A stretch of DNA of 57,028 bases, taken from positions 1 to 57,028 of IMG/VR virus record IMGVR_UViG_3300036716_000382. One strand, given 5' to 3'. The number at the start of each line of letters is the position of its first letter. Within the stretch, counting starts at the first letter, position 1. The translations under genes and the position numbers were made by a program. Below the pieces are notes generated by a model that saw nothing but the letters and a program-made list of their open reading frames with translations, was not told the DNA's origin and did no database searches. This document shows, piece by piece, positions 1,381-41,846 of the stretch. Source of the DNA: a virus.

Positions 1381-1398
1381 AATACTATTTAGTTAATC

Positions 1399-3171: not shown

Positions 3172-3176
3172 TTAAC

Positions 3177-3491: not shown

Positions 3492-3492
3492 T

Positions 3493-4376: not shown

Positions 4377-4395
4377 TGTTTCACTCCTTTAAATA

Positions 4396-6047: not shown

Positions 6048-6052
6048 ACTAC

Positions 6053-6073
6053 TATTTATGTTGTTAATAAATA
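6053..6073. promoter_or_regulatory. Divergent late-type promoter octamers
   Basis: Minus strand CATAAATA at 6060-6053 and plus strand AATAAATA at 6066-6073 resemble the T4 late promoter TATAAATA. Each ends exactly five bases before an ATG (6047 minus, 6079 plus). T4 late transcripts start about six bases after the octamer, so both mRNAs would begin at or next to the start codon. Such octamers arise by chance in AT-rich DNA, so this is moderate evidence. Confidence 0.45.
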
Positions 6074-6078
6074 GATTT

Positions 6079-7162: not shown

Positions 7163-7177
7163 ATTAGAGAAGTATTA

Positions 7178-7199
7178 TGGGTAGCCCGAAGGCTACCCA
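7178..7199 (-). terminator. Stable hairpin terminator after gp32
   Basis: A perfect 9-bp stem (TGGGTAGCC / GGCTACCCA) closes a four-base loop, read as TTCG on the minus strand, a very stable C(UUCG)G tetraloop. It lies 24 bases after the gp32 stop, with AT-rich sequence beyond. This is the expected place for transcription termination or mRNA 3'-end protection of an abundant message. Confidence 0.75.
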
Positions 7200-7222
7200 A
7201 TTGAGAAAGTGAGAGAGATAGA

Positions 7223-8125: not shown

Positions 8126-8185
8126 TGTATTTTCTCCTTGTATATATTGTTGTACGTATTAATTGTATTAATGTAAGTATGTTAT

Positions 8186-8193
8186 TATTTATA
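8186..8193 (-). promoter_or_regulatory. Late-type promoter octamer upstream of gp32
   Basis: Exact TATAAATA on the minus strand in the 138-bp gap before gp32, about 60 bases upstream of its ATG. A GGAG ribosome binding site precedes the ATG. Confidence 0.45.
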
Positions 8194-8257
8194 CTTTTGT
8201 TATACTATTAACCCTTTTTTTTATCTCATAATTAAGATAAAATTCTATTATTATTAT

Positions 8258-8286
8258 ATAATATCACCATTTACTCATTTTGTCAA
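8258..8286 (-). promoter_or_regulatory. Early sigma70-like promoter for gp32
   Basis: Minus strand TTGACA, 17-base spacer, TATTAT, with an extended TGA just before the -10 and GC just before the -35 (GCTTGACA). The -35 lies inside the 3' end of the upstream gene. It belongs to a set of eight similar promoters in this window. Confidence 0.7.
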
Positions 8287-9103
8287 GCAGCTGTGCTTGG
8301 GTGATATACTCTAAATTCTTGTCTTCCTGTACTGCGAATCTCTCTACTTTTTGATTAGTAGGTTTATCATCAAATGCCTTATTCACTTTGTAAAACTTAA
8401 CGTTAGGGTTGTTCTGCATAAGTGTGAGCCATTCTGTTTCCCATATACCTGACGGATTGGGCTCAAAATGTTCTGATACATAATACCTTGTAGATTTGTA
8501 TAGATTGTTAACTGTCTTTGTATCTGATATAAGGTCTTGTCCTATTAGATACATTTCATCTGGTGCTTCAACTAGACTAGCAACATACCCACTTGTAGTA
8601 CCTGCACACCAACCTAAATCTTCAGCGCCAAAACAACATTCAGATATATTGTGTGACTTGTCTGGTTCTTTTATCCAAGACACATATATGTGAGCATTGT
8701 CTATATTTTTTTTCTCTCTATCATCATTTGCTTTTCGTATGACAACAGGACCTTTAATAGTATGAGCGTTCATAACAAAGTGGTCGCTCTCACCTCTTTC
8801 GTTCTCTACAACCAAATCAGCCTGTTCTTTGTTTTGTGTTTGTAGCATACTTTGTAACATTGTATCATACATATGAATAGGTACTTTGGTCCATTCTCTA
8901 AAATAGCAAGGCACATCAGCACACATACCATTATGATATAATTCGTGTATCATACCAGCGTCAACAGCTATCAATGCGTCACATAGGTCAGGATGGTCTC
9001 TATAAATGGCATTACAACCATATATCTTGCCATAAGGTTTCAATACATTTAAATCAAAGTCTTTACGACTCTCACCATTACCAATTAAAAATGTTCTAAT
9101 CAT
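8264..9103 (-). CDS. Glycosyltransferase-like / DUF115-like protein
   Basis: 279 residues. The N-terminus has FLIGNGESRKDFDL followed by YGCNAIYRDHP, a combination found in phage and bacterial proteins related to the DUF115/MptE-like and sialyltransferase-like Rossmann families. A LIAVDAGM segment follows, and later GTTSGYVASLVEAP with DEMYLIGQDL. These match a nucleotide-sugar or pterin-type binding fold. The substrate cannot be told from sequence. It overlaps the next upstream gene by four bases. Confidence 0.5.
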   Translation of the reverse strand: MIRTFLIGNGESRKDFDLNVLKPYGKIYGCNAIYRDHPDLCDALIAVDAGMIHELYHNGMCADVPCYFREWTKVPIHMYDTMLQSMLQTQNKEQADLVVENERGESDHFVMNAHTIKGPVVIRKANDDREKKNIDNAHIYVSWIKEPDKSHNISECCFGAEDLGWCAGTTSGYVASLVEAPDEMYLIGQDLISDTKTVNNLYKSTRYYVSEHFEPNPSGIWETEWLTLMQNNPNVKFYKVNKAFDDKPTNQKVERFAVQEDKNLEYITQAQLLDKMSKW

Positions 9104-9465
9104 AAAAAATAATAATTCGTCAATCCTAATAATAATAAAGATACCAATATTGCATTCAAAAATAATAATGCTCTATCGTGCCATAAGAATCCTACGTATG
9201 CCCAACCTGCTGTACCAAACAAACCTAACCACATATCATACTGTGGTATTGTACCTACACTTCTGGCCATAGTTGCAAACAGTATAAGAAAAACTGATAC
9301 CCATTTTACATACCAAGACAGGTCACCTTTTGGTGTAACCTTTTTATATACACGGCTGCTGTTTAGTTTAGCAATCTTCTCATCTAGTTTTTCTTCAATA
9401 GGGTCAATCTTCTCTTTGATTTTACCAAATGCTCTTTCTTCTGCTGTAGGGAATCTATCTGACAT
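9100..9465 (-). CDS. Three-segment membrane protein
   Basis: 121 residues. A charged N-terminal part with a short coiled coil (about 12-40) is followed by three hydrophobic segments: 52-65 (VKWVSVFLILFATM), 78-95 and 100-118. Similar proteins with this layout occur in marine phages; the function is unknown. It overlaps its upstream neighbour by 11 bases and the downstream gene by four. Confidence 0.6.
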   Translation of the reverse strand: MSDRFPTAEERAFGKIKEKIDPIEEKLDEKIAKLNSSRVYKKVTPKGDLSWYVKWVSVFLILFATMARSVGTIPQYDMWLGLFGTAGWAYVGFLWHDRALLFLNAILVSLLLLGLTNYYFL

Positions 9466-9619
9466 CTTTTTCTTTTATGTGTTTATAATTTAAATAACCT
9501 GAGCACCATTCATAGAAGGCACGATTTGTATCAGGCCAACATTGTGCAAATGCTTTATCTTTTCTGTGGTCTTTATATTCTTTTCTAACTTCTTTTTCTG
9601 TAAGTTTCTTTTCACTCAT
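9455..9619 (-). CDS. Small conserved-looking protein, 54 residues
   Basis: The frame runs ATG 9619 to TAG 9455, coding MSEKKLTEKEVRKEYKDH at the N-terminus and a CWPDTNRAFYEWCSGYLNYK centre. Its start overlaps the gp59 stop by four bases (ATGA) and its end overlaps the next gene by 11. This tight coupling and the Trp/Cys/Tyr-rich centre argue that it is real. Function unknown. Confidence 0.6.
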   Translation of the reverse strand: MSEKKLTEKEVRKEYKDHRKDKAFAQCWPDTNRAFYEWCSGYLNYKHIKEKDVR

Positions 9620-10218
9620 ACAAAAATCTCTTTCATAATAAATTTACACTTTGTTAAATTGAAGTTTATAAATGGTTGTAGTTTTTTGACTTTAAATGAT
9701 TTTTCAGGCCAGATAATATTCTCAGCAATCTCCTTATCCCATTTTTTAATAAAGGATAAAACTTTATCTAGTATGATTAACGTTTGGATTGATATTTTTT
9801 GTGATAGAAATAGTCGTAGCAATTTTGGATGCTGACCTTTAGAAACACTAAACAGATCATCAAACTGAATACTACCATCATTGATAGTATTAGAAAGAAG
9901 TACACAATCGCCTCTAAAATTGTACGTAAATGATTGATTATACTTTTTCCATTTATTGTAAATAGTTTCTCCATCTGCTCTAACTAAATCTCCAATCCAA
10001 GTCTTTGAATTGTGAAAGAAATTACATACAAAATAATCTAACATCTCTTCCTTATTGTATTTAGTTGTAAGTTTGTGAAAAAAGAATCTATCATTGCGTT
10101 TCAAAAATGTATTAAATGATGAATTGACTTTAGCATTGTGTTTGTAGAAATCATAAGAATCAGAAGTAAAGTGAAGTTTAATGGCTAAATATAATGTATA
10201 TGCTTCATAACTATTCAT
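9616..10218 (-). CDS. gp59: Helicase loader gp59
   Basis: 200 residues (T4 gp59 is 217). It follows the family pattern closely: YTLYLAIKLHF near the start, YDFYKHNAKVN, then RNDRFFFHKLTTKY and WIGDLV, and C-terminal LLRLFLSQKISIQTLIILD. gp59 places the gp41 replicative helicase on gp32-coated DNA. The neighbours gp32 and gp33 reproduce the T4 32-59-33 order, which strongly supports the call. Start codon overlaps the end of gp33 by four bases. Confidence 0.88.
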   Translation of the reverse strand: MNSYEAYTLYLAIKLHFTSDSYDFYKHNAKVNSSFNTFLKRNDRFFFHKLTTKYNKEEMLDYFVCNFFHNSKTWIGDLVRADGETIYNKWKKYNQSFTYNFRGDCVLLSNTINDGSIQFDDLFSVSKGQHPKLLRLFLSQKISIQTLIILDKVLSFIKKWDKEIAENIIWPEKSFKVKKLQPFINFNLTKCKFIMKEIFV

Positions 10219-10436
10219 AGGGGTAAGATTGCTGTACTTGATTTCTCAACCAAGTTTAGGTTTTCTGCCTCTTCTTTTATCTTCTCTTTTAATACTTTGT
10301 TGACTAAAGGTCCTACAGACGCTGTATCAATATCATTATCTCCACAATATTTGACTACAGCATCCATATAGGACATTTTTTTTTCTTTGACAATACCTTC
10401 TATTATCAGAGCAAACTTTTTACTATTCATTAGCAT
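10215..10436 (-). CDS. gp33: Late transcription co-activator gp33
   Basis: 73 residues. The helical core MSYMDAVVKYCGDNDID and VNKVLKEKIKEEAENLNLV is typical of gp33 in marine T4-like phages, and the hydrophobic C-terminus (STAILPL) matches the sliding-clamp-binding tail. gp33 bridges the gp45 clamp and host RNA polymerase to activate late promoters with gp55. Synteny with gp59 and gp32 supports it. It is shorter than T4 gp33 (112). Confidence 0.75.
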   Translation of the reverse strand: MLMNSKKFALIIEGIVKEKKMSYMDAVVKYCGDNDIDTASVGPLVNKVLKEKIKEEAENLNLVEKSSTAILPL

Positions 10437-10650
10437 TAGTTCTAACTATGTGCTTTCTTAATGCTCTAACTAATTCTTCAATCTTATCAATAACAGCAAT
10501 CAATGATTTGTCTTTGATAAAATGTTGTTCTTCTTTTAATTTGTCGTATTCTCTTAATGGGATAGTAACCGTTCTTCTGGAAGTCACCTCGTCTTCATAG
10601 GTAGCTGCATTTGCTCGGTCTTGTTCATCATCATTCATAAATGTACTCAT
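10423..10650 (-). CDS. Small acidic N-terminal / helical protein next to gp33
   Basis: 75 residues. An acidic N-terminus (FMNDDEQDRANAATYEDE) leads to TVTIPLREYDKL and a helix ending LVRALRKHIVRTN. In T4 the equivalent position holds dsbA, a small dsDNA-binding protein, but I see no sequence reason to equate them. It is the first gene after the promoter at 10675-10702, with a GAGG ribosome binding site, so it heads the gp33-gp59 early operon. Confidence 0.65.
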   Translation of the reverse strand: MSTFMNDDEQDRANAATYEDEVTSRRTVTIPLREYDKLKEEQHFIKDKSLIAVIDKIEELVRALRKHIVRTNANE

Positions 10651-10674
10651 ATAATTTTTACCTCTTATTAATAT

Positions 10675-10702
10675 ATTATATCATATTAGCGTAAAATGTC
10701 AA
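10675..10702 (-). promoter_or_regulatory. Early sigma70-like promoter for the gp33-gp59 operon
   Basis: TTGACA (10702-10697), 16-base spacer ending TGA, TATAAT (10680-10675) on the minus strand. The -35 directly abuts the last hairpin of the tmRNA gene. Confidence 0.8.
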
Positions 10703-10937
10703 GCCTGTTTCTGTTGCAAGGTACAGGCAAACCCCGACTGCCTAAGCAGCCATACGATAATCTATGTGATTGTCGTTTATAGTTTTAACAGTACGCTGTC
10801 AGCGATTTAACTCCAAATAGTTTTAGTAGCAGTCGAATCTACTCACCCCCTTAAAGCACACTATAATGTGTTTTGAATTGGTGGAGGTGGTGGGAATCGC
10901 ACCCACGTCCTCACTAGTTATTGTCTATTCTTCAACG
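10703..10937 (-). ncRNA. ssrA: Circularly permuted (two-piece) tmRNA
   Basis: On the minus strand the 3' piece comes first: a T-arm (GTGGG stem, loop TGCGATT) and the acceptor strand CACCTCC with encoded A-CCA ending at 10879. After a 28-base spacer the 5' piece starts GGGGGTG at 10850. The two acceptor strands pair over all seven positions (one G-U). The tag frame at 10783-10742 reads TINDNHIDYRMAA then TAG, with the NDN and AA end usual for alphaproteobacterial tags. A GCCTGT/ACAGGC hairpin (10703-10728) closes the 5' piece. tmRNA rescues stalled ribosomes and tags products for proteolysis. The outer boundary near 10937 is approximate. Confidence 0.9.
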
Positions 10938-10944
10938 TCAAATT

Positions 10945-11388
10945 TCAAGTTTGGAGCTCCAATATTGAAGTCCCCTTTGTTAAAGGTGATTTTCTAAACT
11001 GTAAATCAAAACCTCTTAACATTATACACGATTCTGTTAATGTCAATGTTGTTGTTACTGACAAAGATTGTTTCATATCTTGCGTTACATATTCACTTAT
11101 CAAGTAAACTGGTTCGCCAGTATCTTTACCACCTTGTTTACCAACACCAACATAAACTAATATAAATTTATGTTCATCAATATAATCTTTTACTGTTTTA
11201 GTAGTACCACAAACAACTGGCATTTGCATCCAATAAAGTCTGCCTTCTTCATATGGCGTTACTTCAGGTGATTCTCTCTTTATCTTTGGTTCTTCATCAA
11301 GTAGTTTTGGTTCTTCAGCATTCGCAAATTGCATTACAACAAATATTAATAAAACTGACATTAATATAGAAGCTAGAAATTTCTTCAT
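10945..11388 (-). CDS. Secreted protein of unknown function
   Basis: 147 residues with a clear signal peptide (MKKFLASILMSVLLIFVV, cleavage probably after ANA near residue 24). The mature part starts with an acidic linker, then YEEGRLYWMQMPVVCG, LVYVGVGKQGG and ESCIMLRGFD, with two cysteines that could form a disulfide. I do not recognise the family. An AATAAATA octamer lies about 60 bases upstream, and the gene ends just before the tmRNA. Confidence 0.7.
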   Translation of the reverse strand: MKKFLASILMSVLLIFVVMQFANAEEPKLLDEEPKIKRESPEVTPYEEGRLYWMQMPVVCGTTKTVKDYIDEHKFILVYVGVGKQGGKDTGEPVYLISEYVTQDMKQSLSVTTTLTLTESCIMLRGFDLQFRKSPLTKGTSILELQT

Positions 11389-11468
11389 TTCGTTTCCTCT
11401 TTGCTGATATTTTTGAATATCTTTTGGTTTAATCTTTATTAAACTATTTATTAAAGATGTGTGCTAAA

Positions 11469-12179
11469 TCAATAGGTAGAATTGAAGGAATGACTATCTA
11501 AAAAATCTTTTGCGTGTTTATAAAACAACTCTTGGTGTTCTTTTACCTTATCTACTCCGTGTATCCACTCTTGTACAAATCCGTCTTCACAAGCAGCTAA
11601 AATAACAGTTTGTTCTATTTTCTTATCGGGAAATAATTCTTCAAACATTTTAGCATATGCTGAAGTCTGTAAGAAGTTACCGTAATTGTAATCTGCGTCC
11701 CTTCTCTTTGTAGAAGTTTTAAAATCAACTACAGATAACTTACCTTTATATTCTGCAATACAATCTACCTGACCTGCTACACCTATTTCTTTTGAATATA
11801 GGTATTCTTCTAAACAATGTATGTTATCTAGTCTAGCAAGATAAGGTCTCATAATTCTAAAAAGACCTAATGGTGTCACAGCAGTTATGCCGTTAGATTT
11901 TTTATCTTCGTTTCTTAAATGGTTTTCTATGAGAGTGTGGGTAGTTTTACCCCTTGTTGTAGCCGTCACAGAAATATATTTAGCCATCTTCTCACCAACA
12001 GCTGTTCTCCATGCGTCTAATATTTTTTTCTTTTCGGGTAATTGTCCTAATATTGAGGTAACGGAAGGCATATTAACACCGTCAATAGTATAATATCTTA
12101 CACCATCTCGGTTCTTACCTTTCACACCTAAAGATTTAGGCAATACATCTTCATTCAGTTTTATATAATTAAAAGCCAT
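11469..12179 (-). CDS. RecB/Cas4-like PD-(D/E)XK exonuclease
   Basis: 236 residues. The RecB-family signature is complete: RGKTTHTLIE with H81, GQVD139, then VVDFKTST with D152 and K154, and Q170 in FLQTSAYAKM. Such nucleases occur in marine T4-like phages and act in DNA recombination or host DNA turnover. It is driven by the promoter at 12208-12236 and has an AAGGAAGG ribosome binding site. Closest T4 function is uncertain; it is not gp46/47. Confidence 0.8.
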   Translation of the reverse strand: MAFNYIKLNEDVLPKSLGVKGKNRDGVRYYTIDGVNMPSVTSILGQLPEKKKILDAWRTAVGEKMAKYISVTATTRGKTTHTLIENHLRNEDKKSNGITAVTPLGLFRIMRPYLARLDNIHCLEEYLYSKEIGVAGQVDCIAEYKGKLSVVDFKTSTKRRDADYNYGNFLQTSAYAKMFEELFPDKKIEQTVILAACEDGFVQEWIHGVDKVKEHQELFYKHAKDFLDSHSFNSTY

Positions 12180-12207
12180 AATATACCTTCCTTAATTTTA
12201 TATAACA

Positions 12208-12236
12208 ATTATATCACACTATTTCAAGCGTGTCAA
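12208..12236 (-). promoter_or_regulatory. Early sigma70-like promoter for the RecB-like nuclease
   Basis: TTGACA (12236-12231), 17-base spacer ending TGA, TATAAT (12213-12208), minus strand, preceded by GC. Consensus-quality promoter in a 110-bp gap. Confidence 0.82.
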
Positions 12237-12288
12237 GCTGTCATTATACACCCTTCTCGGTGTATAAATTATTAATTTCTTCTGCCGT

Positions 12289-12789
12289 TCACTCACTAGC
12301 TGGCTTAGGTTTTGCGTGAACCCTATATGAGTATTCCTCATACTTCGTTTTGCCATTATGATCTCTATATGCTCTTAAAAATTGCTTTCTATTATCTTCT
12401 TTATTTTTAAAAGAGCAATGAATCCAACCACTACTAGGTTCTTCTGGTTTCCAATACTCCAAGATAAGCTGATCATAGTCTAAATTTTTATCTATGTAAT
12501 GTGCTAATTCCTGATTAGACACTCCAAAGATTTCAAAATCAGCGGCTTGGCCTTTTGCGTGTTGTGAGTTTATAGATGATCCTATTGCCACACATAAATC
12601 GGGACTTCTAAATCCACTTGATACTGTGACAGGTGTAGCATATTGGTCACGGACTGGTTGTAAAATATTTTCACATAATCTTTGTAATCCTTCAATCTGA
12701 TCCTCGTTAGGGTTATTATTAATACCCTTACGTTCAGCAGTTTGACTGGTTACTAACTCTTTAAGCGTGAAATTTTTGCTTAATCTCAT
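12289..12789 (-). CDS. M15-family peptidase, probable endolysin
   Basis: 166 residues of the Peptidase_M15_3 type: FTLKELVTSQTA at the start, VTVSSGFRSP (55-63), SQHAKGQAADFE with H77 and D84, E111 and WIHCSF with H124. These are the zinc ligands and catalytic acid. It should cleave peptide cross-links in peptidoglycan. No signal peptide, so it would need the holin. It is far from the spanin cassette at 43 kb. The start overlaps the DUF465-like gene by 29 bases. Confidence 0.82.
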   Translation of the reverse strand: MRLSKNFTLKELVTSQTAERKGINNNPNEDQIEGLQRLCENILQPVRDQYATPVTVSSGFRSPDLCVAIGSSINSQHAKGQAADFEIFGVSNQELAHYIDKNLDYDQLILEYWKPEEPSSGWIHCSFKNKEDNRKQFLRAYRDHNGKTKYEEYSYRVHAKPKPASE

Positions 12790-12934
12790 TTAATTTATCC
12801 TTTGCTTGTAGTTTAATCTTCTTTAGGGTTCTTAAATCAAACCACGATTTAAAAGACCTGTCGTTTAATCTTTTTGTTTCAATTTCGTTGACTGCTCTTT
12901 TAAGTTCTTTATGATGTGCCTTTTGCTCTAACAT
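12761..12934 (-). CDS. DUF465/YdcH-like small protein
   Basis: 57 residues from ATG 12934 to TAA 12761. HHKELKRAVNEIE and TLKKIKLQAKDKLNEI give the two-helix, LKKxKLxxKDxL pattern of DUF465 proteins, which are common in alphaproteobacteria. The function of the family is unknown. The overlap with the M15 gene is out of frame. Confidence 0.6.
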   Translation of the reverse strand: MLEQKAHHKELKRAVNEIETKRLNDRSFKSWFDLRTLKKIKLQAKDKLNEIKQKFHA

Positions 12935-12937
12935 ATA

Positions 12938-13336
12938 TTACCCCCTTGTTAGTTTTAATAATTTATCCATTTGTGCCTTAATAATTGGACCTCTATTTGG
13001 CCAATGTATATATGGTTCACTGGATTTTGAAAGATTGTATAAAAATGGTAGTACAATCTTTTCAATCTCTTTAAATCTTCCTACGATATCAGCGTCCTGT
13101 ATTTCTTTATTAACAGTATCTTTCTCAGCTACAATCTGCATAACTTCGTTCATCATACTTTTAATATCAGAAACATCACCCTTTACTTTTGCTAATTCTA
13201 AACTTTGGCTATCAATTGCTTTCGGGTCAATAGCTGGCTGTGTTGTTTCGTCAGCTGGTTTCTGTGATACAGGAGTAAAACCATAATCTACATCCGTATC
13301 AAATTCCCTCATAAAATCTGGAATATCTTTTGCCAT
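12938..13336 (-). CDS. Conserved phage protein, unknown
   Basis: 132 residues. A Pro/Asp-rich N-terminus (DIPDFMREFDTDVDYGFTP) is followed by a helical segment and a C-terminal SSEPYIHWPNRGPIIKAQMDKLLKLTRG region that looks strongly constrained and recurs in marine T4-like phages as far as I recall. Likely soluble. It is coupled to its upstream gene by a one-base overlap. Confidence 0.7.
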   Translation of the reverse strand: MAKDIPDFMREFDTDVDYGFTPVSQKPADETTQPAIDPKAIDSQSLELAKVKGDVSDIKSMMNEVMQIVAEKDTVNKEIQDADIVGRFKEIEKIVLPFLYNLSKSSEPYIHWPNRGPIIKAQMDKLLKLTRG

Positions 13337-13776
13337 TATTTTTTCTCCTTGTTTTTGTTAATTGTGGTGCCGTCTGGTGCGTGTACTTTTATGCTTTGAC
13401 ATACTGCTTCTAAGCCTTCATCTAATACTCTACTAACCTTACAATCATAGCCTGTTATCTTGGATAGGGCATAATCGTTGGTGGTAGGCATATCATTTGC
13501 GGCTAAAGCAATATCGGCTCCTGTTTTTGTAAATGTTATTGTTTTGTACGTTTCATATGTACTGGCACTAGTACCAACAAACGCTGGTAAACTACCACAA
13601 CCCGACAATAATAGACCAACCATAGCTATGGGCAGGACTCTCTTGTGTTTTAAGCAGGATAACTCCTGCCCTATGAGATTATACAATAAGCGGATTGACC
13701 TACTAGACTCTGGTATACGACCGTTGCGTTTCAGTTGCTCGCTTTGTATTATATCTCTATTATTTAGTTTTTGCAC
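13336..13776 (-). CDS. Lipoprotein; start uncertain
   Basis: The C-terminal 95 residues are convincing: PIAMVGLLLSGCGS (a lipobox), then ALSKITGYDCKVSRVLDEG and a Lys-rich tail. The upstream frame is open back to a GTG at 13776, which would put over 50 residues before the lipobox, unusual for a lipoprotein. The first internal ATG (13623) gives a very short signal region without the KHKR lysines and has no ribosome binding site close by. The 13630-13671 segment forms competing hairpins, so initiation may be controlled or the upstream part may be non-coding. Confidence 0.55.
   Translation of the reverse strand: MQKLNNRDIIQSEQLKRNGRIPESSRSIRLLYNLIGQELSCLKHKRVLPIAMVGLLLSGCGSLPAFVGTSASTYETYKTITFTKTGADIALAANDMPTTNDYALSKITGYDCKVSRVLDEGLEAVCQSIKVHAPDGTTINKNKEKK
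13630..13671 (-). repeat. Competing hairpins around the lipoprotein start
   Basis: GGGCAGGA (13630-13637) is the perfect complement of TCCTGCCC (13664-13671), and GCAGGA at 13654-13659 can instead pair with TCCTGC (13664-13669) across a four-base loop. The two foldings exclude one another. The segment is more GC-rich than its surroundings and lies just upstream of the lipobox codons. Confidence 0.5.
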
Positions 13777-14074
13777 TTTGCCTAGCCTTATGCTTTTTCA
13801 TAACTTGTTGTGTTTTGATTTGTTTTGTTGACCGTGTACCCATTTCTCCTGCTAATGGGCTCAATGGGTGTGCTTCTGCAACCTTTGATAGTGTTTCTTT
13901 CCAACCTGAATCGCTTCTATAACTTTGACCACTAACCCCAGCAACAATATTAAGCTTTGTTATTTCTTGTGTAATGTGTTTATTTTTAGACAAGTATTCT
14001 TCCTTATCAGCAATGCTCATCATATCAGTAAATACTTTACCTGTCTTCTTATTTTTAAATGTGTATGTTGGCAT
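13760..14074 (-). CDS. Conserved marine-phage protein, zinc-ribbon-like N-terminus without cysteines
   Basis: 104 residues, MPTYTFKNKKTGKVF then MMSIADKEEYLSKN, GVSGQSYRSDSGWKETLSKVAEAHPLSPLA, and a basic C-terminus. The MPTYxF start resembles FmdB-type regulatory zinc ribbons, but the cysteines are absent. Similar proteins are common in cyanophages and pelagiphages. Function unknown. Confidence 0.7.
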   Translation of the reverse strand: MPTYTFKNKKTGKVFTDMMSIADKEEYLSKNKHITQEITKLNIVAGVSGQSYRSDSGWKETLSKVAEAHPLSPLAGEMGTRSTKQIKTQQVMKKHKARQSAKTK

Positions 14075-32246: not shown

Positions 32247-34403
32247 TTAGTCCGTCTGTATTATTGTTATGTATGGGTATCCAGGAGGTATAATATCGCC
32301 AACATCTATATTCTGTGCTTCTGAATCTTGTAAAATTTGAATATCAGCTGTCTTGGAAGTTTCAACCTTAATATAAGCCCTATGATTGTCGTTATATCTA
32401 TTTATGATTGTGTAATCACCAGAGGTTGAAGCTGTTGCGTTAAAGTCGTTATCTAACGTTGAAACTCTTCCTGTTGAAGTGGTACTTGTTGACACACCAC
32501 CACTTGTTGTAGTTAAAGTTTGAGTTACATCTCCAGTAGTATAATTTAAAGTTTCACCACTAGCAGTTACCTGTGTTTCTGAACCACTATTGTCAACCCA
32601 TTCTGTACCACAGGATTGATTTGCATTGTCCCAATAGTATCCATAATTTAAACAATCTTCCTCATCATAACTTGCTAATAATATTTCCAATTCTGCGTCT
32701 ATATCATAGTCATCTTCATAAGAATATTCATCTTCCCAATTACTCTCATCATCTTCATTATTATAATCGTAACCTGTCCACCACCAATCGTATAATGCGT
32801 CCCAATATATGTCCCAATCGTCCCAACTCCAATTAGTTATATAAGTCTTCTTTAAGTCTTTCATCTTCCAAGGTTTAGGCTGGTCATCACACATTTTATA
32901 GTTTGGCCAACTTCCACACCAACCATATAGTTTACCAAATATCTTTTTAGATTCTTTAGTCCAACTATCATTGGTTACTTTTAAAGTCCAATCATCTTTG
33001 TACCAGTCATTTAGATAATCAACATAATCTTGGTTACACCAGTAATCATCATAGCCATTGTACTCACAATAGTTTTGTACTGTTAATGTCGGAGGACCAC
33101 CTGCGTTTTTGTATTCATTATTATTATAATAGTCATCATCTAAAGCAAAATCTTCCCAAGTATATCCTTCAACAACAGTTGCTTCTGTTTCATCTTTTGT
33201 ATCTTCAACAACATCTTGTTCATCTACATCAACATTCCAAGAAGTTAAACCATAGTCTTCTAATAGTTCATTATATTTGTCCGAATATTCGTCCCAATCT
33301 ACAGCGTCCCAATCAATAGTATCCCAATCAATAGTATCCCAGGTACAATCTGAACAACCAATAGCGTCAAAGTATGCTTGGTCCATTTCAGCATACATTT
33401 TCTTTGCGTCATCCCAATCCATAGTTTTTTCACCTTCGGCATCCCAAACTGAAATCTGGTTGTCTTCATCTATATAACCCCAATCTTTTAAATCATCTTC
33501 CCATTCATCATAGTAAGATGTATCAACTTCATCTACTTCAACTAAAGTATTTTCTTCTACTGATTTTGTTTCAATCATTGTATCTGCTTCACTAGCAGAT
33601 AAATCTGTAGCAACAATTGTATCACTATTTTCTACAATACTTGCCTCTTCATTTATTATCGCCTCTTCCATTTCCTGAGCTTCTTGTTCGTCTTTAGACA
33701 ATTCAGATTTTTTATCTACATCACCAAAAGTTTTTGTTGATTCATCTTTTATATCTTCTTCAAATTCTTCTAACTCAATAATGTCTGATTTATTAGTTTC
33801 TATCTTTGGAGGAGTTGGTGTCAGGTCGTTTGACACAACTGTTACTGAATTGTATGCGTTAGTTATGGTTTGAGAACCTGCGTCATTAGAGACCGTTACA
33901 GACCCTATATCACCATCACTATCTGGTAGTAAGGTAATTGTAACCTCACCACTAGTGTCAACTGTTCCTGAAAAGGCAGTACCTTGTACTGTAACTGTAG
34001 CGAATCCAGCATTGATATTAACTTCACCACCTAAATTGGATACTTGACCTGATTCATATGTAAATGAACCTACATTAACTGATATGTTCATTGCAATTTC
34101 AATTGGTACAGAAGAAGTATCAAAAGCAAATTCATCAATAACTAATTCTGTATTTGGTCCCATTGTAAATTTAGTATCATCAACGTAAGATAAAATCATA
34201 CCACCATCTTCTCCAGTTTGGAGAAAGTCGTTCATCTGCAACTCATAACCCATTGCTGTATTTTCAGTTTGACCATCACGCTCATTCCAAGTAGTACCCA
34301 TTTGGCCTGATACAGTACCTACTTTAGGTCCTGTTATTTGTGCTGAGGAAAGACTAGTACATAAAAGTACCAAGATTGATACTAATAAAAATAACTTCTT
34401 CAT
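32247..34403 (-). CDS. FecR-domain secreted protein with Trp/Asp-rich region
   Basis: 718 residues. Signal peptide (LFLLVSILVLLCTSLSSA), then a FecR domain (about 25-190: LQMNDFLQTGEDGGMILSYV, FTMGPNTELVIDEF, GEVNINAGFATVTVQGTAFS). A Glu/Asp-rich linker follows, then about residues 290-600 are packed with Trp, Asp and Tyr, including tandem WDTIDWDTIDWDAVDWDEY and YDWWWTGYDYNN. A Ser/Thr-rich end (TTTSGGVSTSTTSTG) and a C-terminal domain with DVGDIIPPGYPYITI close it. FecR domains sense and bind in the periplasm; the WD-rich part has no family I know. It follows the curlin-like gene with a one-base gap. Confidence 0.8.
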   Translation of the reverse strand: MKKLFLLVSILVLLCTSLSSAQITGPKVGTVSGQMGTTWNERDGQTENTAMGYELQMNDFLQTGEDGGMILSYVDDTKFTMGPNTELVIDEFAFDTSSVPIEIAMNISVNVGSFTYESGQVSNLGGEVNINAGFATVTVQGTAFSGTVDTSGEVTITLLPDSDGDIGSVTVSNDAGSQTITNAYNSVTVVSNDLTPTPPKIETNKSDIIELEEFEEDIKDESTKTFGDVDKKSELSKDEQEAQEMEEAIINEEASIVENSDTIVATDLSASEADTMIETKSVEENTLVEVDEVDTSYYDEWEDDLKDWGYIDEDNQISVWDAEGEKTMDWDDAKKMYAEMDQAYFDAIGCSDCTWDTIDWDTIDWDAVDWDEYSDKYNELLEDYGLTSWNVDVDEQDVVEDTKDETEATVVEGYTWEDFALDDDYYNNNEYKNAGGPPTLTVQNYCEYNGYDDYWCNQDYVDYLNDWYKDDWTLKVTNDSWTKESKKIFGKLYGWCGSWPNYKMCDDQPKPWKMKDLKKTYITNWSWDDWDIYWDALYDWWWTGYDYNNEDDESNWEDEYSYEDDYDIDAELEILLASYDEEDCLNYGYYWDNANQSCGTEWVDNSGSETQVTASGETLNYTTGDVTQTLTTTSGGVSTSTTSTGRVSTLDNDFNATASTSGDYTIINRYNDNHRAYIKVETSKTADIQILQDSEAQNIDVGDIIPPGYPYITIIQTD
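33309..33338 (-). repeat. 15-bp perfect tandem repeat
   Basis: CCAATCAATAGTATC occurs twice in tandem (33309-33323 and 33324-33338), coding the repeated DTIDW unit of the FecR-domain protein. Further imperfect copies follow in the same Trp/Asp run. Confidence 0.85.
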
Positions 34404-34404
34404 T

Positions 34405-35499
34405 TTAACAACCGTTTGATACTGTAGCAGTTACGTCTGCTGTTTGATTATTTCTATTATATGAGTATGTACAATTATCTGAACCGTCTTGTGAAAAGTT
34501 TAATGTGTAATCGTAAATTGAATCACCTGTGATAGTTACCTTACCAGTATTACCACCACCCACTTGAGCAAAGTTTATTACTGAATCATCTGTATAAAGG
34601 AAAATTCTAGCAGTATTATTTCCACCTGCCATATGTAATCTTATTGTGTTATCATCACCATTTATTATTGTTCTTAACCAATTGCTATCACCTAATATCG
34701 TCATTGTATCTCCATATGGGTCGCTATCGGCACTAGTATAACTAGAATGAATATCTAAAAGATTATCATTACCTATAATATCGTGTAGTTGATAATTGCC
34801 TGTACCGTATGATGAAGTGTGTAGTGTATTGGAATTACCAATAATATAAATGTCGGCACTTGCGCCTTCACTACCTGAACTATCTGCAAATTGTCCGTGT
34901 GATGTTGTTTGTGGACCAATAGCCTTATTGGAGTTTGTATTAAATCCTACTGAATCTGCTGTGGTATAAATTTGTACATTATTTGAGTCGCCAGACATAA
35001 GAACATACCAGAAATGACCATCACCTCTACTACGCACCCAAAAAACATTTGAGTCACCTGTAATATCTAAATCAACATTAGTTTTCTGTACATCATCGGC
35101 CGTCCAAGTATCAAAATCTACATTGTTTGAATCACCTGTAATATCTATGTCATAATAATGACCATCAGCACCTGTATCATCAATATCTGGTCTCAATGTA
35201 TTAGAATCACCAGTTGCTGTATAATCAAAAGTCATATCATCACCTTTAAAAGAGTTATGATTTGACCAATCAGTTTTATTATTGTCGCCTATTTGTTTAA
35301 TGATGATGGTGATGTTCTCTCCATCTATTTTAAATGGATATGATGTGCTATAACCAACCGTGTTGCCTGTACCATCTTGTTTTATAAAGATAGAGTTGTT
35401 GCTGTTTTGGTTATCTTGCTGAATCCAAACTGAATTACCTGCCCAGCAATTACTGGTTAGGGTTACCAGAGTCACTAGAATCATTATCAGTTTTTTCAT
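34405..35499 (-). CDS. Curlin-repeat protein (CsgA/CsgB-like)
   Basis: 364 residues. Signal peptide (LIMILVTLVTLTSNCWA), then many curlin-like units of Asn/Gly/Ser with IxIxQxGxxN cores: NSIFIKQDGTGN, ITIIIKQIGDNN, VINFAQVGGGN, plus repeated GDSN(N/T)... turns about every 20-25 residues. A beta-solenoid amyloid-like subunit is the natural reading. It overlaps csgG by 50 bases in another frame, so translation is linked. Confidence 0.75.
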   Translation of the reverse strand: MKKLIMILVTLVTLTSNCWAGNSVWIQQDNQNSNNSIFIKQDGTGNTVGYSTSYPFKIDGENITIIIKQIGDNNKTDWSNHNSFKGDDMTFDYTATGDSNTLRPDIDDTGADGHYYDIDITGDSNNVDFDTWTADDVQKTNVDLDITGDSNVFWVRSRGDGHFWYVLMSGDSNNVQIYTTADSVGFNTNSNKAIGPQTTSHGQFADSSGSEGASADIYIIGNSNTLHTSSYGTGNYQLHDIIGNDNLLDIHSSYTSADSDPYGDTMTILGDSNWLRTIINGDDNTIRLHMAGGNNTARIFLYTDDSVINFAQVGGGNTGKVTITGDSIYDYTLNFSQDGSDNCTYSYNRNNQTADVTATVSNGC

Positions 35500-36487
35500 C
35501 TTGCTCCTCCTCGTCTGTATCTATTTGGTTCCATTCTTCTTCAGCAGCTTCTGTTTTTAATTTCTCGTCTGCTACTTCGTTTTCTTCTTTTAATTTCTTT
35601 TCTTCAAGGTATTCTTCGTAAGTCTTTTCCTCTTTTACCACTCCCATATCAACGTGTACACCTATTTCAGTATTATTTGTATAATCTATTACTTTTTTTT
35701 CAGTAATTTCTACAACTGGTATATCAAATTCCCATAAATCTTTTTTAGCACCTTCATTAATTAATTCTACTACACCTTTTTCAATTGCTTTTCTTACTGC
35801 ATAAGTAACAGGTTCATTTCTAGCAACACCAGCTTCAACTTCTAATAACATTGTATCAGTATCTAAATATTTAAATATATCGCCACCAGTTTCACCTGAA
35901 ATTATAGTTTTCTCAACAGTAATTGATACAACTACTTCACCAGTTTGTACATTAACTAGTCTTAATATAACAGTAACTACATCTTGTCGCCATTGTTTAT
36001 GTGCTTGTATGCCTAAAATTCTAGCACCAACACCACCAGATTTAATATCTGAATCGTAACCTACTATACCACCTGTGATATATGCACCTGCAAATAATAA
36101 TGGTGGTAAAGGTTCTGCACCTTCTCCATTAACTTGTTGTCTTGTAGACCTAATTAGTTTTCTTTCTTGTAATAGACTTGGGAGACTTGTTCTTTCTACT
36201 ACTTTAAACCAATTACCATCACCTGCATCCTGTAATGCTTTAATTAATAACTGATATGATCCTTGAGTAACCGCTGTACTCATTGAGGCAAAGTTACCAC
36301 CTGGTTTCTTTTGTCCTGTCATATCTAGGAAATCATAAACTGCAATCACTATTGGATCGCCTTTTGGTGATTTGATTTCAGTTAAATCTTTATATTGTAC
36401 AGGTTGGGTTCGTACATCAAAATCAGGTCTTCCAGCACAACTAACTAACAACAATGTTAATAAAAATATTCCTATTGCTCTTAACAT
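35450..36487 (-). CDS. csgG: Curli secretion channel CsgG
   Basis: 345 residues. Lipobox LLVSC (C17), then IVIAVYDFLDMTGQ, GNWFKVVERTSLPSLLQERK, and GARILGIQAHKQWRQDVVTVILRLV, the CsgG core, in order and nearly full length (E. coli CsgG is 277). A C-terminal extension of about 80 residues is Glu/Asp/Lys-rich and not found in the usual protein. CsgG forms the outer-membrane channel for curli subunits. Confidence 0.88.
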   Translation of the reverse strand: MLRAIGIFLLTLLLVSCAGRPDFDVRTQPVQYKDLTEIKSPKGDPIVIAVYDFLDMTGQKKPGGNFASMSTAVTQGSYQLLIKALQDAGDGNWFKVVERTSLPSLLQERKLIRSTRQQVNGEGAEPLPPLLFAGAYITGGIVGYDSDIKSGGVGARILGIQAHKQWRQDVVTVILRLVNVQTGEVVVSITVEKTIISGETGGDIFKYLDTDTMLLEVEAGVARNEPVTYAVRKAIEKGVVELINEGAKKDLWEFDIPVVEITEKKVIDYTNNTEIGVHVDMGVVKEEKTYEEYLEEKKLKEENEVADEKLKTEAAEEEWNQIDTDEEEQDEKTDNDSSDSGNPNQ

Positions 36488-36951
36488 TATGAATTGTCCT
36501 CTTTAGGCATTGTAAATGTTGTTACGGTACCATCTGATTCTGTAACAGTTACGGTTACAGTATCATTATTACCTGTTGTTGTTGTTGCCCAAGTAACTAC
36601 TTCACCACCAATTGGTGATGTAAATGTACCAGAGTCTTGTTGTAGACCATCTGTACCGAAAACATTATCTGTAAGCTGTTTAGCAAGTGCTGTATAGAAT
36701 CTTGCCTCTACATTTGCTTTGAATTTTGCTATGGCTGTTGCCTTGGCGTCTGCTATTACTTTATCTGCTGCTGCTTTATTCGCAGCCTTAATTGCGTCTT
36801 TTCTTGTTTTCTCTATATTTTCAATTGTTAAATAATGTGATGACTTTCCTTGACCAGAAAACGATGGACTATCAAATTTAAATCCTAATTCACTAGCATT
36901 CGTCATAGAAAACATAGAAAACCACACTAAAATTGTTAGTATAATTCTCAT
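36487..36951 (-). CDS. csgF: Curli assembly protein CsgF
   Basis: 154 residues. Signal peptide (IILTILVWFSMFSMTNA), then LGFKFDSPSFSGQ, the FxFxxPxFGG-type start that enters the CsgG pore, followed by an Ala/Lys helix and a strand-rich C-terminus (TVTVTVTESDGTVTTF). CsgF caps CsgG and anchors the fibre. Coupled to csgG by TAATG. Ala/Lys content of the middle helix is higher than in enteric CsgF. Confidence 0.78.
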   Translation of the reverse strand: MRIILTILVWFSMFSMTNASELGFKFDSPSFSGQGKSSHYLTIENIEKTRKDAIKAANKAAADKVIADAKATAIAKFKANVEARFYTALAKQLTDNVFGTDGLQQDSGTFTSPIGGEVVTWATTTTGNNDTVTVTVTESDGTVTTFTMPKEDNS

Positions 36952-36973
36952 ATTTCTCCCCTTATGATACTAT

Positions 36974-37003
36974 TATTTATATGATAAGTTGGCTAAATAA
37001 ATA
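36974..37003. promoter_or_regulatory. Divergent late-type promoter region
   Basis: Minus strand TATAAATA (36981-36974) lies 22 bases before the csgF ATG with AGGGGAG as ribosome site. Plus strand AATAAATA (36996-37003) ends six bases before the ATG of the cyclase gene, which has no Shine-Dalgarno. The region is the only divergent start between the curli genes and the cyclase. Confidence 0.5.
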
Positions 37004-37009
37004 GATAAT

Positions 37010-38647
37010 ATGATAAAACTGCTAACTAATAAATGGTCTGTATGGATGATTGCTTTAATATTGATTATAATCTATATTTCTAATCCTGTATTGATACAAA
37101 AAACAAGACTTTCTGCTTTAGATAATTATCAAAATTTTGGGAATAACTACGAATCCAAAAGTCTAGTACTCCTGGATATTTCGGATGAAGCTTTAGTTAA
37201 ATCTGGTCAATGGCCTTGGAAAAGAGATTTATTAGGTCGTACTATAATCAACGCATATAAAAATGGTGCAGCTCTAGTCTTCTTAAATGTAGTCTTTGTA
37301 CATAAAGATAGATTAGGTGGTGATGAAATGTTTTTGAAGATGATTACCAAGTACCCTATCATATTAACTGAAACAAGTCAAGCAAAAAACCTAAAAAGTA
37401 TAGAGAGAAAAGCACTTGCTGTAGGAAATGTAGAAGTGCCTATTGATATTGATGGTACTATTAGAAAATTACCGCTTGACAAATCCGTCCCAAGTGTTAT
37501 ACTGAAAGTCATTAAATTTCCAATACCTAACCAAGACGATATTTGGATTGATTTCAGACACCAGATACCTAGAATAGATTATACTGATAAAGATTGGTCA
37601 TCTATGAAGGGTAAAATAGTTTTTATTGGAACAACCTTTAAAGGTTCTACTTTCGTTCTTACTCCAAACGGTTTAAAAAACACACACGAAATAATGGCAT
37701 TGTCAACAGAAACTTTATTGTCTGGTAAGTTTATTACAAGACCTAATTGGTTGTATATAAGTGAAATAGGAATAACTATAATTGCTTTATTATTCCTTTT
37801 GATTATAATGCCTAGATTAGGATTACTATGGTCTGCATTATGTTTAGTAGGTTTCTATTTTGATATAGCACTTGCAAGTGGTTATCTATGGACTCAACAT
37901 ATGATAATGGTTGATTGGATAACTCCTATGATTATAGGAAGTATTATATGGTCTCATTTAATCTATAATAATTTTGCTAGAGAGAATAGATTAAAACTAC
38001 AAATCAAAAAACAATTTGAGCATTACCTTGCACCTGGTATGGTTAAAAAATTACAAAAAGATCCTTCTCTATTAAAACTAGGTGGGGAAAGAAAAGAATT
38101 AACATTTTTATTTTCAGATATTAGAGGTTTTACTCCTATATCGGAAAGGTTTAAAGATAATCCTGAACAACTTACTCGTTATGTTAATAAGTTTCTAACT
38201 GCAATGACAAATATTATATTAAAAAATGAAGGGACAATAGACAAGTATATGGGTGATTGTATTATGGCATTTTGGAACGCACCATTAGATTGTAAAAATC
38301 ATAGAGAGATGGCAGTTAAATCTGCTAAAGAGATGAAACAAAAACTAGCATTAATGAATAAAACTAAAGAGTTTGATCCACCTTTAAACATAGGTATAGG
38401 TATCAATACTGGTCAATGTCTTGTAGGTAATATGGGGTCTGAACAAAGGTTTGATTATTCAGTAATAGGAGACGCTGTTAATTTAGCAAGTAGATTGGAA
38501 AGTTCAAGTAAAACTTTAGGACAAGATATTGTTATATCTGAAAATACTAGAGAACCTTTATTTGAAAGATTTAATTTTAAATATATTGATGAGATTAAAG
38601 TAAAAGGTAAAGAAGAACCTATAAACGTCTATACTATTAAATTTTAG
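37010..38647 (+). CDS. CHASE2-domain class III adenylate/guanylate cyclase
   Basis: 545 residues. TM at about 8-27, then a periplasmic CHASE2 domain (about 35-240: VLLDISDEALVKSGQWPWKR, KIVFIGTTFKGS), three membrane helices (about 245-325) and a complete class III cyclase domain (about 350-545). FSDIRGFT and KYMGDCIMAFW carry the two metal Asp residues and the base-contact Lys; VIGDAVNLASRLE gives the transition-state Asn and Arg. A Ser sits where Thr or Asp specifies adenine, so cAMP is the likelier product. Full length and intact. It is one of the few plus-strand genes and converges on the next gene by 11 bases. Confidence 0.92.
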   Translation: MIKLLTNKWSVWMIALILIIIYISNPVLIQKTRLSALDNYQNFGNNYESKSLVLLDISDEALVKSGQWPWKRDLLGRTIINAYKNGAALVFLNVVFVHKDRLGGDEMFLKMITKYPIILTETSQAKNLKSIERKALAVGNVEVPIDIDGTIRKLPLDKSVPSVILKVIKFPIPNQDDIWIDFRHQIPRIDYTDKDWSSMKGKIVFIGTTFKGSTFVLTPNGLKNTHEIMALSTETLLSGKFITRPNWLYISEIGITIIALLFLLIIMPRLGLLWSALCLVGFYFDIALASGYLWTQHMIMVDWITPMIIGSIIWSHLIYNNFARENRLKLQIKKQFEHYLAPGMVKKLQKDPSLLKLGGERKELTFLFSDIRGFTPISERFKDNPEQLTRYVNKFLTAMTNIILKNEGTIDKYMGDCIMAFWNAPLDCKNHREMAVKSAKEMKQKLALMNKTKEFDPPLNIGIGINTGQCLVGNMGSEQRFDYSVIGDAVNLASRLESSSKTLGQDIVISENTREPLFERFNFKYIDEIKVKGKEEPINVYTIKF

Positions 38648-40811: not shown

Positions 40812-41846
40812 TTATCTGATTGGTGGTACGTACATCACGCCACCATCCTTCCATAGTTTATTTAGTCCTCTTTCTAATGCAAGAGGTGTTTTTGGTCCTA
40901 CGTTTCTTTCAAAAGATTCTCCGTAATTACCAACTTGTTTGATAATATTATAACCAAATTTCATACCAAGTCCTAACATAGGACCGATATAACCTTCTTC
41001 ACCTAAAATTCTTAAAACTTCTTTGTTCTTACTATCTAACATTGAGTCAACATTTTCAGAAGTAATACCTGCCTCTTCAGCATTTATCATAATGAAATGT
41101 GTCCATCTTATTACATCTTCCCACTCTTGGTCGCCTTGTCTTACAAGTGGACCTAATGGTTCTTTAGATATAATTTCTGGTAAGACTACCCATTTACTAG
41201 GGTCTTCTGCACCTGCTCTTGCGGATGCTAAACCAGAAGCGTCTGTAGTAAATACATCACACTCGCCAGCAAATAGTTTTGCCTTTGCGTCTTTATTACC
41301 TTCAACATAAATTGGTTGATATTGCATATTATTTTCTGCAAAATAATCATTTAGATTTAATTCACTTGTAGTTTCTTTTGTAATACAAACAAACGCACCA
41401 TCTAATTGTGTTGCACTTCTAATCTCTAAATGTGTTGGTACTAAAAATCCTTGACCATCATAATAATTAACACCTGCAAATTCAAACATTAAGTTCACAT
41501 CTCTACTGATTGTCCAAGTTGTGTTTCTTGCAAGTACATCAATATTGCCAGACGCTAATGTTGGAAATCTTTGAGCAGCATTTAATCCTACAAATTCTAC
41601 TTTACTTGAATCTCCAAATATGCCAGCGGATACTGCTTTACAGAAGTCAACATCTAAACCACTCCAGTTTCCTGCGTCATCCTGAGCAGAGAAACCAGGC
41701 AAGCCTGCATTAACTCCACATACAACATAACCTCGTTCTTTTACAGTTTGAAGTAAACCTACTTCTTGTTCTATTTTAATACTTTTATTTGTATTACAAC
41801 CTACTAATAATAGAGTTGTAAATAATATCATTAATAATTTTTTCAT
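40812..41846 (-). CDS. Periplasmic amino-acid-binding protein (AapJ/YhdW-like)
   Basis: 344 residues. Lipobox LLVGC (C17). LQTVKERGYVVCGVNAGLPG starts a type II binding protein, with GNWSGLDVDFCKAVSAGIFG, LNAAQRFPTLASGNIDVLARNTTWT and VGNYGESFERNVGP at the end, which match general L-amino-acid-binding proteins of ABC transporters. It is full length. The permease and ATPase are not in the window, so it would load the host transporter. Confidence 0.88.
   Translation of the reverse strand: MKKLLMILFTTLLLVGCNTNKSIKIEQEVGLLQTVKERGYVVCGVNAGLPGFSAQDDAGNWSGLDVDFCKAVSAGIFGDSSKVEFVGLNAAQRFPTLASGNIDVLARNTTWTISRDVNLMFEFAGVNYYDGQGFLVPTHLEIRSATQLDGAFVCITKETTSELNLNDYFAENNMQYQPIYVEGNKDAKAKLFAGECDVFTTDASGLASARAGAEDPSKWVVLPEIISKEPLGPLVRQGDQEWEDVIRWTHFIMINAEEAGITSENVDSMLDSKNKEVLRILGEEGYIGPMLGLGMKFGYNIIKQVGNYGESFERNVGPKTPLALERGLNKLWKDGGVMYVPPIR

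Follow-up and report, generated by a model that had tools for sequence, protein, structure and literature searches.

Curli genes occur in podo- and myo-pelagiphages, for which the arrangement CsgF-CsgG-CsgA/B-FecR-(CsgA/B)-AC was described (PMC9599517; this and the other papers are cited from excerpts of their text), and from their first description onwards their function there has been considered unclear (PMC7029224). The type VIII secretion system (T8SS) modules of HTVC023P-type podophages and of myo-pelagiphages consist of CsgF-CsgG-CsgA/B-FecR, often together with an adenylate cyclase (PMC9599517). In the T4-like pelagiphage HTVC008M (NC_020484 gp014-gp019), genes for CsgF, CsgG, curlin, FecR and a CHASE2 cyclase adjoin one another; the "hypothetical protein" of this island in the record is FecR by Pfam, and the cyclase is labelled adenylate/guanylyl cyclase. 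Methylophilales phage Melnitz (MZ577097 genes 99-104) holds the same families, with a "FecR domain protein" and a cyclase annotated. From bacteria, a biofilm operon combining FecR with a CHASE2 kinase is known: the Burkholderia BiofilmReg operon, in which an exported FecR-domain protein is encoded beside a CHASE2 receptor (PMC5192318).

Here we analysed a stretch of 57,028 nt (hereafter the window; positions 1 to 57,028 of IMG/VR record IMGVR_UViG_3300036716_000382). A preliminary description had held a phage with the whole set to be undescribed; the annotated HTVC008M and Melnitz and the pelagiphages published in 2022 (PMC9599517) contradict this, and the window phage cannot be called the first phage with the set. 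The window and HTVC008M share T4-like genes in largely the same order (ribonucleotide reductase 76%, gp32-like 67%, primase 47% and others), and by these shared genes the marine, T4-like window phage is a probable pelagimyophage of the HTVC008M group.

The curli island and its conservation

Positions 32247-38647 hold intact csgF, csgG, a curlin-type gene and a FecR-domain gene in a tight operon, and head-to-head with them a gene for a CHASE2 class III cyclase (Table 1). This agrees with the operon and divergent cyclase of the preliminary description: the ORFs lie where it had placed them, and Pfam and the relatives concur. The csgG product, with a lipoprotein-like signal as judged by eye, is predicted to be the outer-membrane curli pore. 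The curlin-type protein reached 15.9 bits with Pfam Curlin_rpt (cut-off 20.7) and also aligned to the Melnitz curlins by BLASTP (curlin-2, E 9.0e-12), and the loci spanning the operon have a curlin-type gene in it. Its model is strand-rich with regular spacing (mean pLDDT 71), and the fold search with this model gave no match below E 0.001, the top rows being beta-helix enzymes and tailspikes. We regard the protein as a candidate curlin-type fibre subunit and the amyloid fibre as putative.

Table 1 Features of the curli island in the window.
Feature	Position	Strand	Evidence or remark
FecR-domain protein, 718 aa	32247..34403	-	phrog_37870 1.1e-20; AlphaFold model vs 4m0n, 6ovk
Curlin-type protein, 364 aa	34405..35499	-	Curlin_rpt 0.012, below cut-off; Melnitz curlin-2 BLASTP 9.0e-12
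csgG, 345 aa	35450..36487	-	Pfam CsgG 3.2e-49, above cut-off; phmmer to solved CsgG 3x2r 8.8e-49
csgF, 154 aa	36487..36951	-	Pfam CsgF 5.4e-10, above cut-off
TATAAATA, T4-type late promoter word	36974..36981	-	22 bp upstream of csgF start codon
CTAAATA, possible variant late promoter word	36993..36999	+	suggestive only; 10 bp before cyclase start codon
CHASE2 class III cyclase, 545 aa, divergent from csgF	37010..38647	+	Pfam CHASE2 6.9e-26, Guanylate_cyc 1.9e-25, both above cut-offs

The island interrupts a gene order common to the window phage and HTVC008M, as an assembly chimera or a decaying passenger island might. Against this stand the intact frames and active-site residues; a CsgG that is 100% identical on two other contigs, L005 and L006 (170,818 bp), with a cyclase (L065) that is likewise 100% identical on the 170,818-bp contig holding the identical CsgG; 33 distinct cyclases, counting that of the window, that lie divergently at 15-98 bp from csgF; and, among 136 viral loci with curli or cyclase genes at their centre, homologues of primase in 50 and of ribonucleotide reductase in 49, a count in which some contigs were entered twice. 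Chimerism or decay is so improbable on this evidence that we reject it. Neither it nor the other two outcomes named beforehand as speaking against the preliminary description, lack of conservation and a cyclase inactive by its residues, was encountered.

Cyclase and late promoter words

The cyclase has the metal-binding D370 and D416, the base-contact residues K412 and S484 and the transition-state residues N491 and R495, and of 99 distinct phage cyclases spanning the catalytic region, 98 have the full set. By these residues the window enzyme appears intact and is predicted to be active, and the Lys/Ser base-contact pair suggests cAMP as product. For comparison, CyaD1 without CHASE2 is a constitutive producer of cAMP (PMC5498481). 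Two placements of the cyclase gene occur within the window clade, one divergent from csgF and one colinear after FecR, and a tree of 90 cyclases requires two changes between them; the gene keeps the company of the operon despite its changed place.

Of 66 distinct stretches upstream of csgF, 45 have a late promoter word within 70 bp of the gene, compared with 1.57 expected from mononucleotide shuffling; the word was found before none of the other operon genes (csgG 0/63, curlin 0/77, fecR 0/57). TATAAATA itself stands before just 1 of 81 cyclase genes, and YTAAATA or TATAAATA before 39 of 81, which makes late expression less certain for the cyclase. A sigma-70 scan was uninformative (59 sites, 57.6 expected).

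The FecR-domain protein and its C-terminus

The window FecR protein had no Pfam match at E 0.1 and was aligned to the Melnitz FecR protein by BLASTP (2.8e-19); among seven phage FecR proteins scanned, Pfam FecR scored above cut-off in six and below it in one (L045). Its AlphaFold model (mean pLDDT 72, pTM 0.33) matched the FecR-family structures 4m0n (Z 15.1) and 6ovk (PupR; Z 14.9), so that the protein, as modelled, has the FecR periplasmic signalling fold. A signal-like helix is followed by the FecR domain at about 25-217, an acidic linker, a helical part and a beta-rich C-terminus; fold searches, which test the helical and C-terminal parts poorly, gave no clear PDB match for them. According to model and sequence, the helix comprises residues 2-19 and the FecR strands start at residue 27, with no N-terminal anti-sigma part on the cytoplasmic side ahead of the membrane helix. 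No ECF sigma factor partner was detected among 10 island proteins scanned with Pfam.

The protein finishes with ITIIQTD, and among 64 distinct C-termini of phage FecR proteins, 61 have a curlin-like strand motif. The motif is absent from the ends of CsgG (0/60), CsgF (0/60) and cyclases (0/85) and of bacterial FecR proteins (0/40), and 22 of 74 curlins finish in it; curlins of the window clade have a Cys-containing tail in its place. Profile comparison of the FecR ends with curlins was not significant (probability 3.9% and 7.2%), and we speak of a likeness in motif only.

Bacterial FecR/CHASE2 pairs

The preliminary description had stated that genes for FecR-domain proteins and CHASE2 cyclases are paired in bacteria. 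This was borne out: among the 80 nearest bacterial cyclase loci, 43 gave a FecR profile match, with FecR within 400 bp of the cyclase in 33. The profile found nothing in the other 37, 10 of which have less than 2 kb upstream. All nine bacterial partners scanned carry FecR near the N-terminus, and five of the nine also have RTX, cadherin, Ig or VWA domains; the excerpt of PMC8277102 held no mention of RTX retention with FecR. CsgG, CsgF and curlin were found near none of the 80 cyclases. A bacterial curli operon with FecR and a CHASE2 cyclase, as a donor, was not found in the genomes examined: of 385 alphaproteobacterial genomes, 5 had a CsgF match above cut-off and 6 had one at E 0.001, none of the five loci above cut-off (17 kb fetched) had a FecR or CHASE2 cyclase gene nearby, and CsgF was absent from the 20 genomes holding close cyclases that were searched (20 of the 80 loci).

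Probable host and the search for a nucleotide receiver

Two genomes of the G318 family, which is taken here to be SAR11, have contigs with related islands binned to them, and kinship suggests SAR11 as the host of the window phage. Another family (G056, n=52), chosen by the nearest solute-binding protein, was replaced by that of G318 after the SAR11 probe found 0/52; in it cNMP_binding, CHASE2 and, above cut-off, class III cyclases were each found in 0/52, and at E 0.001 one class III cyclase with two stops inside was detected (1/52). Among the 147 genomes of the probable SAR11 family, a cNMP-binding domain was found in 9 and a class III cyclase in 2; each of these two cyclases lies on a contig that carries the curli island. 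None of six phage records contains cNMP_binding. Among the papers listed in a literature search on cNMP signalling in SAR11 and on phage cyclases, nothing came up beyond PMC9599517. What would a phage-made cyclic nucleotide do where class III cyclases and cNMP-binding domains are so rare?

Discussion

Our tentative main reading, to which we give a probability of roughly 0.4, is that a late-expressed phage module exports a curli-like surface fibre and that its FecR protein, as the ligand of the CHASE2 sensor, reports on this fibre. The operon products would reach the periplasm, where the CsgG/CsgF pore would let through curlin and the FecR protein's tail; the last strands of this tail may join the fibre, while its N-terminal FecR domain would remain periplasmic and contact the CHASE2 domain, and through this proposed contact the state of the fibre or envelope would set cyclase activity. 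Late in infection, the cell surface would be remodelled and cells would perhaps aggregate, with a cyclic nucleotide being produced in their interior. Surface remodelling together with envelope sensing is plausible. Against this reading, no receiver was found in the six phage records, cNMP_binding is present in only 9 of the 147 probable-host-family genomes, and cultures of Melnitz showed no clumping (PMC9004378). A bolder reading, which we find unlikely, is a private envelope-reporting circuit: one end of the FecR protein belongs to the fibre, CHASE2 senses the other, and the nucleotide acts in cells mostly devoid of classical makers and binders. In that case either a novel type of protein, from phage or host, would receive the nucleotide, or its role would be other than to switch transcription.

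The published interpretation (PMC9599517) takes such genes for a complete type VIII secretion system, with FecR as an iron-dependent regulator and curli under the control of cAMP; aggregation, superinfection defence or cofactor uptake would be the outcome. The FecR fold is indeed common to true FecR-type regulators, but here the FecR domain comes right after the signal-like N-terminus without a cytoplasmic anti-sigma part, RTX/cadherin proteins are among its bacterial counterparts next to CHASE2 cyclases, a phage late promoter word stands at the operon and cNMP-binding domains are missing from the six phage records and scarce in the family of the probable host; we consider this interpretation improbable. 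There is as little to expect from a role in lysis timing, suggested for Melnitz (PMC9004378), in which CsgG/CsgF would be a gated outer-membrane pore that aids depolarisation or release and is tuned by the other genes. The late promoter word before csgF suits it, and no CsgE was matched among the 30 window proteins scanned, so that the pore may be ungated; yet a bare pore has no need of the curlin-type gene that the spanning loci include, and the CHASE2 cyclase and the FecR end motif would be left unexplained. The chance is slimmer still that the cyclase, rather than signalling to a transcription factor, acts by its product or its use of ATP, perhaps countering a nucleotide-based defence as an agent or decoy, and is linked to curli via the FecR sensor only: the lack of a classical receiver in the phage records and, mostly, in the probable host family would be accounted for, but a membrane sensor would be an odd design.

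Returning to the fibre-reporting module, comparison with bacterial FecR/CHASE2 systems turns the guess of an iron regulator, as which PMC9599517 takes FecR, into a testable contact between two proteins. Like the phage island, the bacterial pairs have an N-terminal FecR domain and an adjacent CHASE2 cyclase, sometimes head to head; they differ in that Csg genes are lacking from the 80 loci and the curlin-like end from the 40 FecR proteins compared, and in that FecR is often carried on large RTX/cadherin proteins. In Burkholderia BiofilmReg, the receptor is a histidine kinase and FecR is joined to LysM (PMC5192318). Among phages, the modules of PMC9599517 have a histidine kinase in the podophage form and, in the excerpted text, a cyclase that follows FecR and is not divergent. 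Melnitz is colinear and its cyclase is without the transition-state Asn. In HTVC008M all genes are colinear, a second curlin-type gene is added, FecR has 368 aa compared with 718 in the window, the cyclase is 35% identical to that of the window, and the island adjoins a gp32-like gene instead of primase. Added here are this different genome position, the divergent or colinear cyclase within one clade, the late promoter word before csgF, the bacterial FecR/CHASE2-cyclase pair without curli, the rarity of cNMP-binding domains and class III cyclases in the probable SAR11 family, and the curlin-like ends of the phage FecR proteins.

The curli island and its variants

The curli island of the window is real, intact and conserved. 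Its consecutive csgF, csgG, curlin-type and FecR-domain genes overlap or leave a one-base gap between neighbours, and the cyclase gene starts 58 bp from the csgF start on the opposite strand of the 57,028-bp virus record. The identities of the curlin-type and FecR-domain proteins are carried by BLASTP against proteins of the phages Melnitz and HTVC008M, by Pfam matches of relatives and by a structure model. All six catalytic residues are present in the window cyclase, whose top profile match among solved structures is CyaB (3r5g), which differs from it in having Thr at the site of Ser484. Of 99 distinct phage cyclases spanning those residues, 98 have the full set; the sole exception, the Melnitz cyclase, has no transition-state Asn and may, judging from its sequence, be inactive.

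Coordinates of the island genes and of related features (window unless stated otherwise)
Feature	Position	Strand	Support
csgF	36487-36951	minus	Pfam CsgF above cut-off
csgG	35450-36487	minus	Pfam CsgG above cut-off
Curlin-type gene	34405-35499	minus	Pfam curlin below cut-off
FecR-domain gene	32247-34403	minus	window protein without Pfam match
CHASE2 class III cyclase	37010-38647	plus	Pfam CHASE2 and cyclase above cut-off
Permuted (two-piece) alphaproteobacterial-type tmRNA	10700-10993	minus	Rfam RF04321 and RF01849
ApaLI-like restriction endonuclease	6527-7162	minus	PF09499, 5.1e-29
Solute-binding protein, amino-acid type	40812-41846	minus	SBP_bac_3, 3.1e-13; lipobox-like start
Melnitz (L003), cyclase	11908-13959
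L122, FecR-cadherin-RTX adhesin-like protein	131-4546
L122, CHASE2 cyclase	8001-9836
L126, cyclase	8004-9812
L251, full curli-FecR-cyclase island	7155-11920
L252, full curli-FecR-cyclase island	2593-7806

Two scans of viral contigs gave 60 loci via CsgG and at least 80, skewed to close relatives, via the cyclase. In the window clade, a locus has a single curlin (~360-370 aa), and its FecR protein measures 706-850 aa if complete. The HTVC008M-like loci are fully colinear; their curlin is shorter and usually joined by a second one, their cyclase is longer, and their FecR protein measures ~350-382 aa. Among the matches listed, the 102 distinct cyclases comprise 47 colinear, 33 divergent, 4 convergent and 18 unplaced ones. 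On a tree of 90 cyclases, built without those below 500 aa and with three orientation labels assigned by hand, divergent versus colinear placing takes two changes. The cyclase was relocated inside the module yet remained with it, and this speaks for a shared function.

A second CHASE2 cyclase lies inside or adjoining the island in the viral loci L052, L054, L055 (each at 12482) and L056 (at 3); it is convergent with FecR in the first three, and that of L054 clusters, on long branches, with the cyclase of L122, a 172-kb phage record. By eye in the alignment, the L126 cyclase looks like a chimera of an HTVC008M-type CHASE2 part and a window-like catalytic domain.

FecR beside CHASE2

The preliminary description mentioned a pairing of FecR-domain and CHASE2-cyclase genes in bacteria, and this was borne out: a FecR profile built from the phage proteins matched in 43 of 80 bacterial cyclase loci, mostly alphaproteobacterial, which were the closest among the matches listed in a scan of genome contigs, and the CsgG, CsgF and curlin profiles in none of these 80. 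FecR lay within 400 bp of the cyclase in 33 of the loci listed, upstream on the same strand in 29 of them; 10 of the 37 loci without a FecR match had less than 2 kb upstream. In all nine bacterial partners scanned with Pfam the FecR domain lies close to the N-terminus; RTX, cadherin, Ig or VWA domains accompany it in five. L122 encodes a 1471-aa FecR-cadherin-RTX protein 3.4 kb upstream of its cyclase, and the Csg profiles had no match in the 17.8 kb fetched of it. The predicted structure of the window FecR protein matches FecR-type signalling domains (Z about 15) and, possibly by chance, the 76-residue 'cell surface anchoring domain' 5ix9 (Z 7.5), which is presumably from an ice-binding RTX adhesin. 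Precedents are a biofilm operon in which FecR adjoins a CHASE2 kinase (PMC5192318) and CyaD1, which makes cAMP constitutively without CHASE2 (PMC5498481).

The FecR C-terminus

The pattern hydrophobic-x-hydrophobic-x-Q plus one or two residues (e.g. ITIIQTD) ends 61 of 64 distinct phage FecR proteins; of the other three, the ORF of L010 is interrupted, the protein of L122 is adhesin-like and that of L121 stops at the Gln itself. Across 18 diverse ends there is one invariant Arg, along with two almost invariant Gln columns spaced 21 residues apart. The motif also ends 22 of 74 curlins, none of them of the window clade, and by eye some alphaproteobacterial curlin-like ORFs have the same end; it was absent from the ends of 60 CsgG, 60 CsgF, 85 cyclase and 40 bacterial FecR proteins. 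Profile comparison aligned the FecR ends to curlin-1 ends without significance, and the likeness is one of motif, with homology unproven.

Promoter words

TATAAATA occurs 22 bp upstream of csgF in the window and within 70 bp upstream of csgF in 45 of 66 distinct stretches, versus 1.57 expected (mononucleotide shuffle); the same distance gave 0/63 for csgG, 0/77 for curlin, 0/57 for fecR and 1/81 for the cyclase. TATAAAT is the T4-like late promoter as used in PMC9004378, and we infer that the curli operon is probably transcribed late. Late transcription of the cyclase is only suggested by TATAAATA or YTAAATA upstream of 39 of 81 cyclase genes versus 6.05 expected (divergent 15/26, colinear 18/42).

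The receiver of the cyclic nucleotide

The most interesting point is the missing receiver. cNMP_binding (PF00027) had no match in six phage records, a 170-kb relative included. A SAR11 16S probe matched exactly in 2 of 385 class genomes, both in one genome family, which for this reason is taken as SAR11. In this probable host family, PF00027 exceeded the cut-off in 9 of 147 genomes and class III cyclase in 2 (3 at E 0.001); genome completeness is not given, so these absences are soft. By eye, two PF00027 proteins (L244 and L245) look like Cys-rich FNR-type regulators. Both cyclases above the cut-off sit on contigs, 23 and 15 kb long, that bear the full curli island, and one of the two contigs has homologues of the HTVC008M oxygenase cluster as well; we take these contigs (L251, L252) for phage DNA in host bins, useful for host assignment. 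The scarcity cuts against a plain cAMP-to-transcription-factor story, our own included.

Relation to known phages

The window phage is a T4-like relative of Pelagibacter phage HTVC008M (ribonucleotide reductase 76%, its small subunit 67%, gp32-like protein 67%, primase 47%), with gene order largely kept; its tmRNA is of a kind known in such phages (PMC9004378). The island adjoins the gp32-like gene in HTVC008M, whereas the window's genes at 32.2-42.2 kb adjoin the primase, between homologues of ~20.3 and ~20.5 kb in the HTVC008M stretch L004. Of 136 viral loci fetched around curli or cyclase genes (some contigs counted twice), 50 have a primase homologue and 49 a ribonucleotide reductase homologue, so this site is standard for the window's clade and no quirk. 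The ApaLI-like gene adjoins the window's gp32-like gene, near the place of the HTVC008M island. The solute-binding protein is 62% identical to one in a 1.6-Mb alphaproteobacterial genome and has homologues (87-94%) in three viral loci.

Fresh leverage comes from the pairing of FecR with CHASE2, from the motif at the FecR end, from the late promoter word and from the missing receiver. That a phage with the whole set is undescribed, as had been proposed, does not hold: the records of HTVC008M and Melnitz have the same families side by side. PMC7029224 reports csgF and csgG in pelagimyophages and asks whether neighbouring genes make fibres, PMC9004378 proposes a pore with a role in lysis, and PMC9599517 describes, for podo- and myophages, a CsgF-CsgG-CsgA/B-FecR set that often includes another CsgA/B and an adenylate cyclase. 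The island is a rearranged form of this published module.
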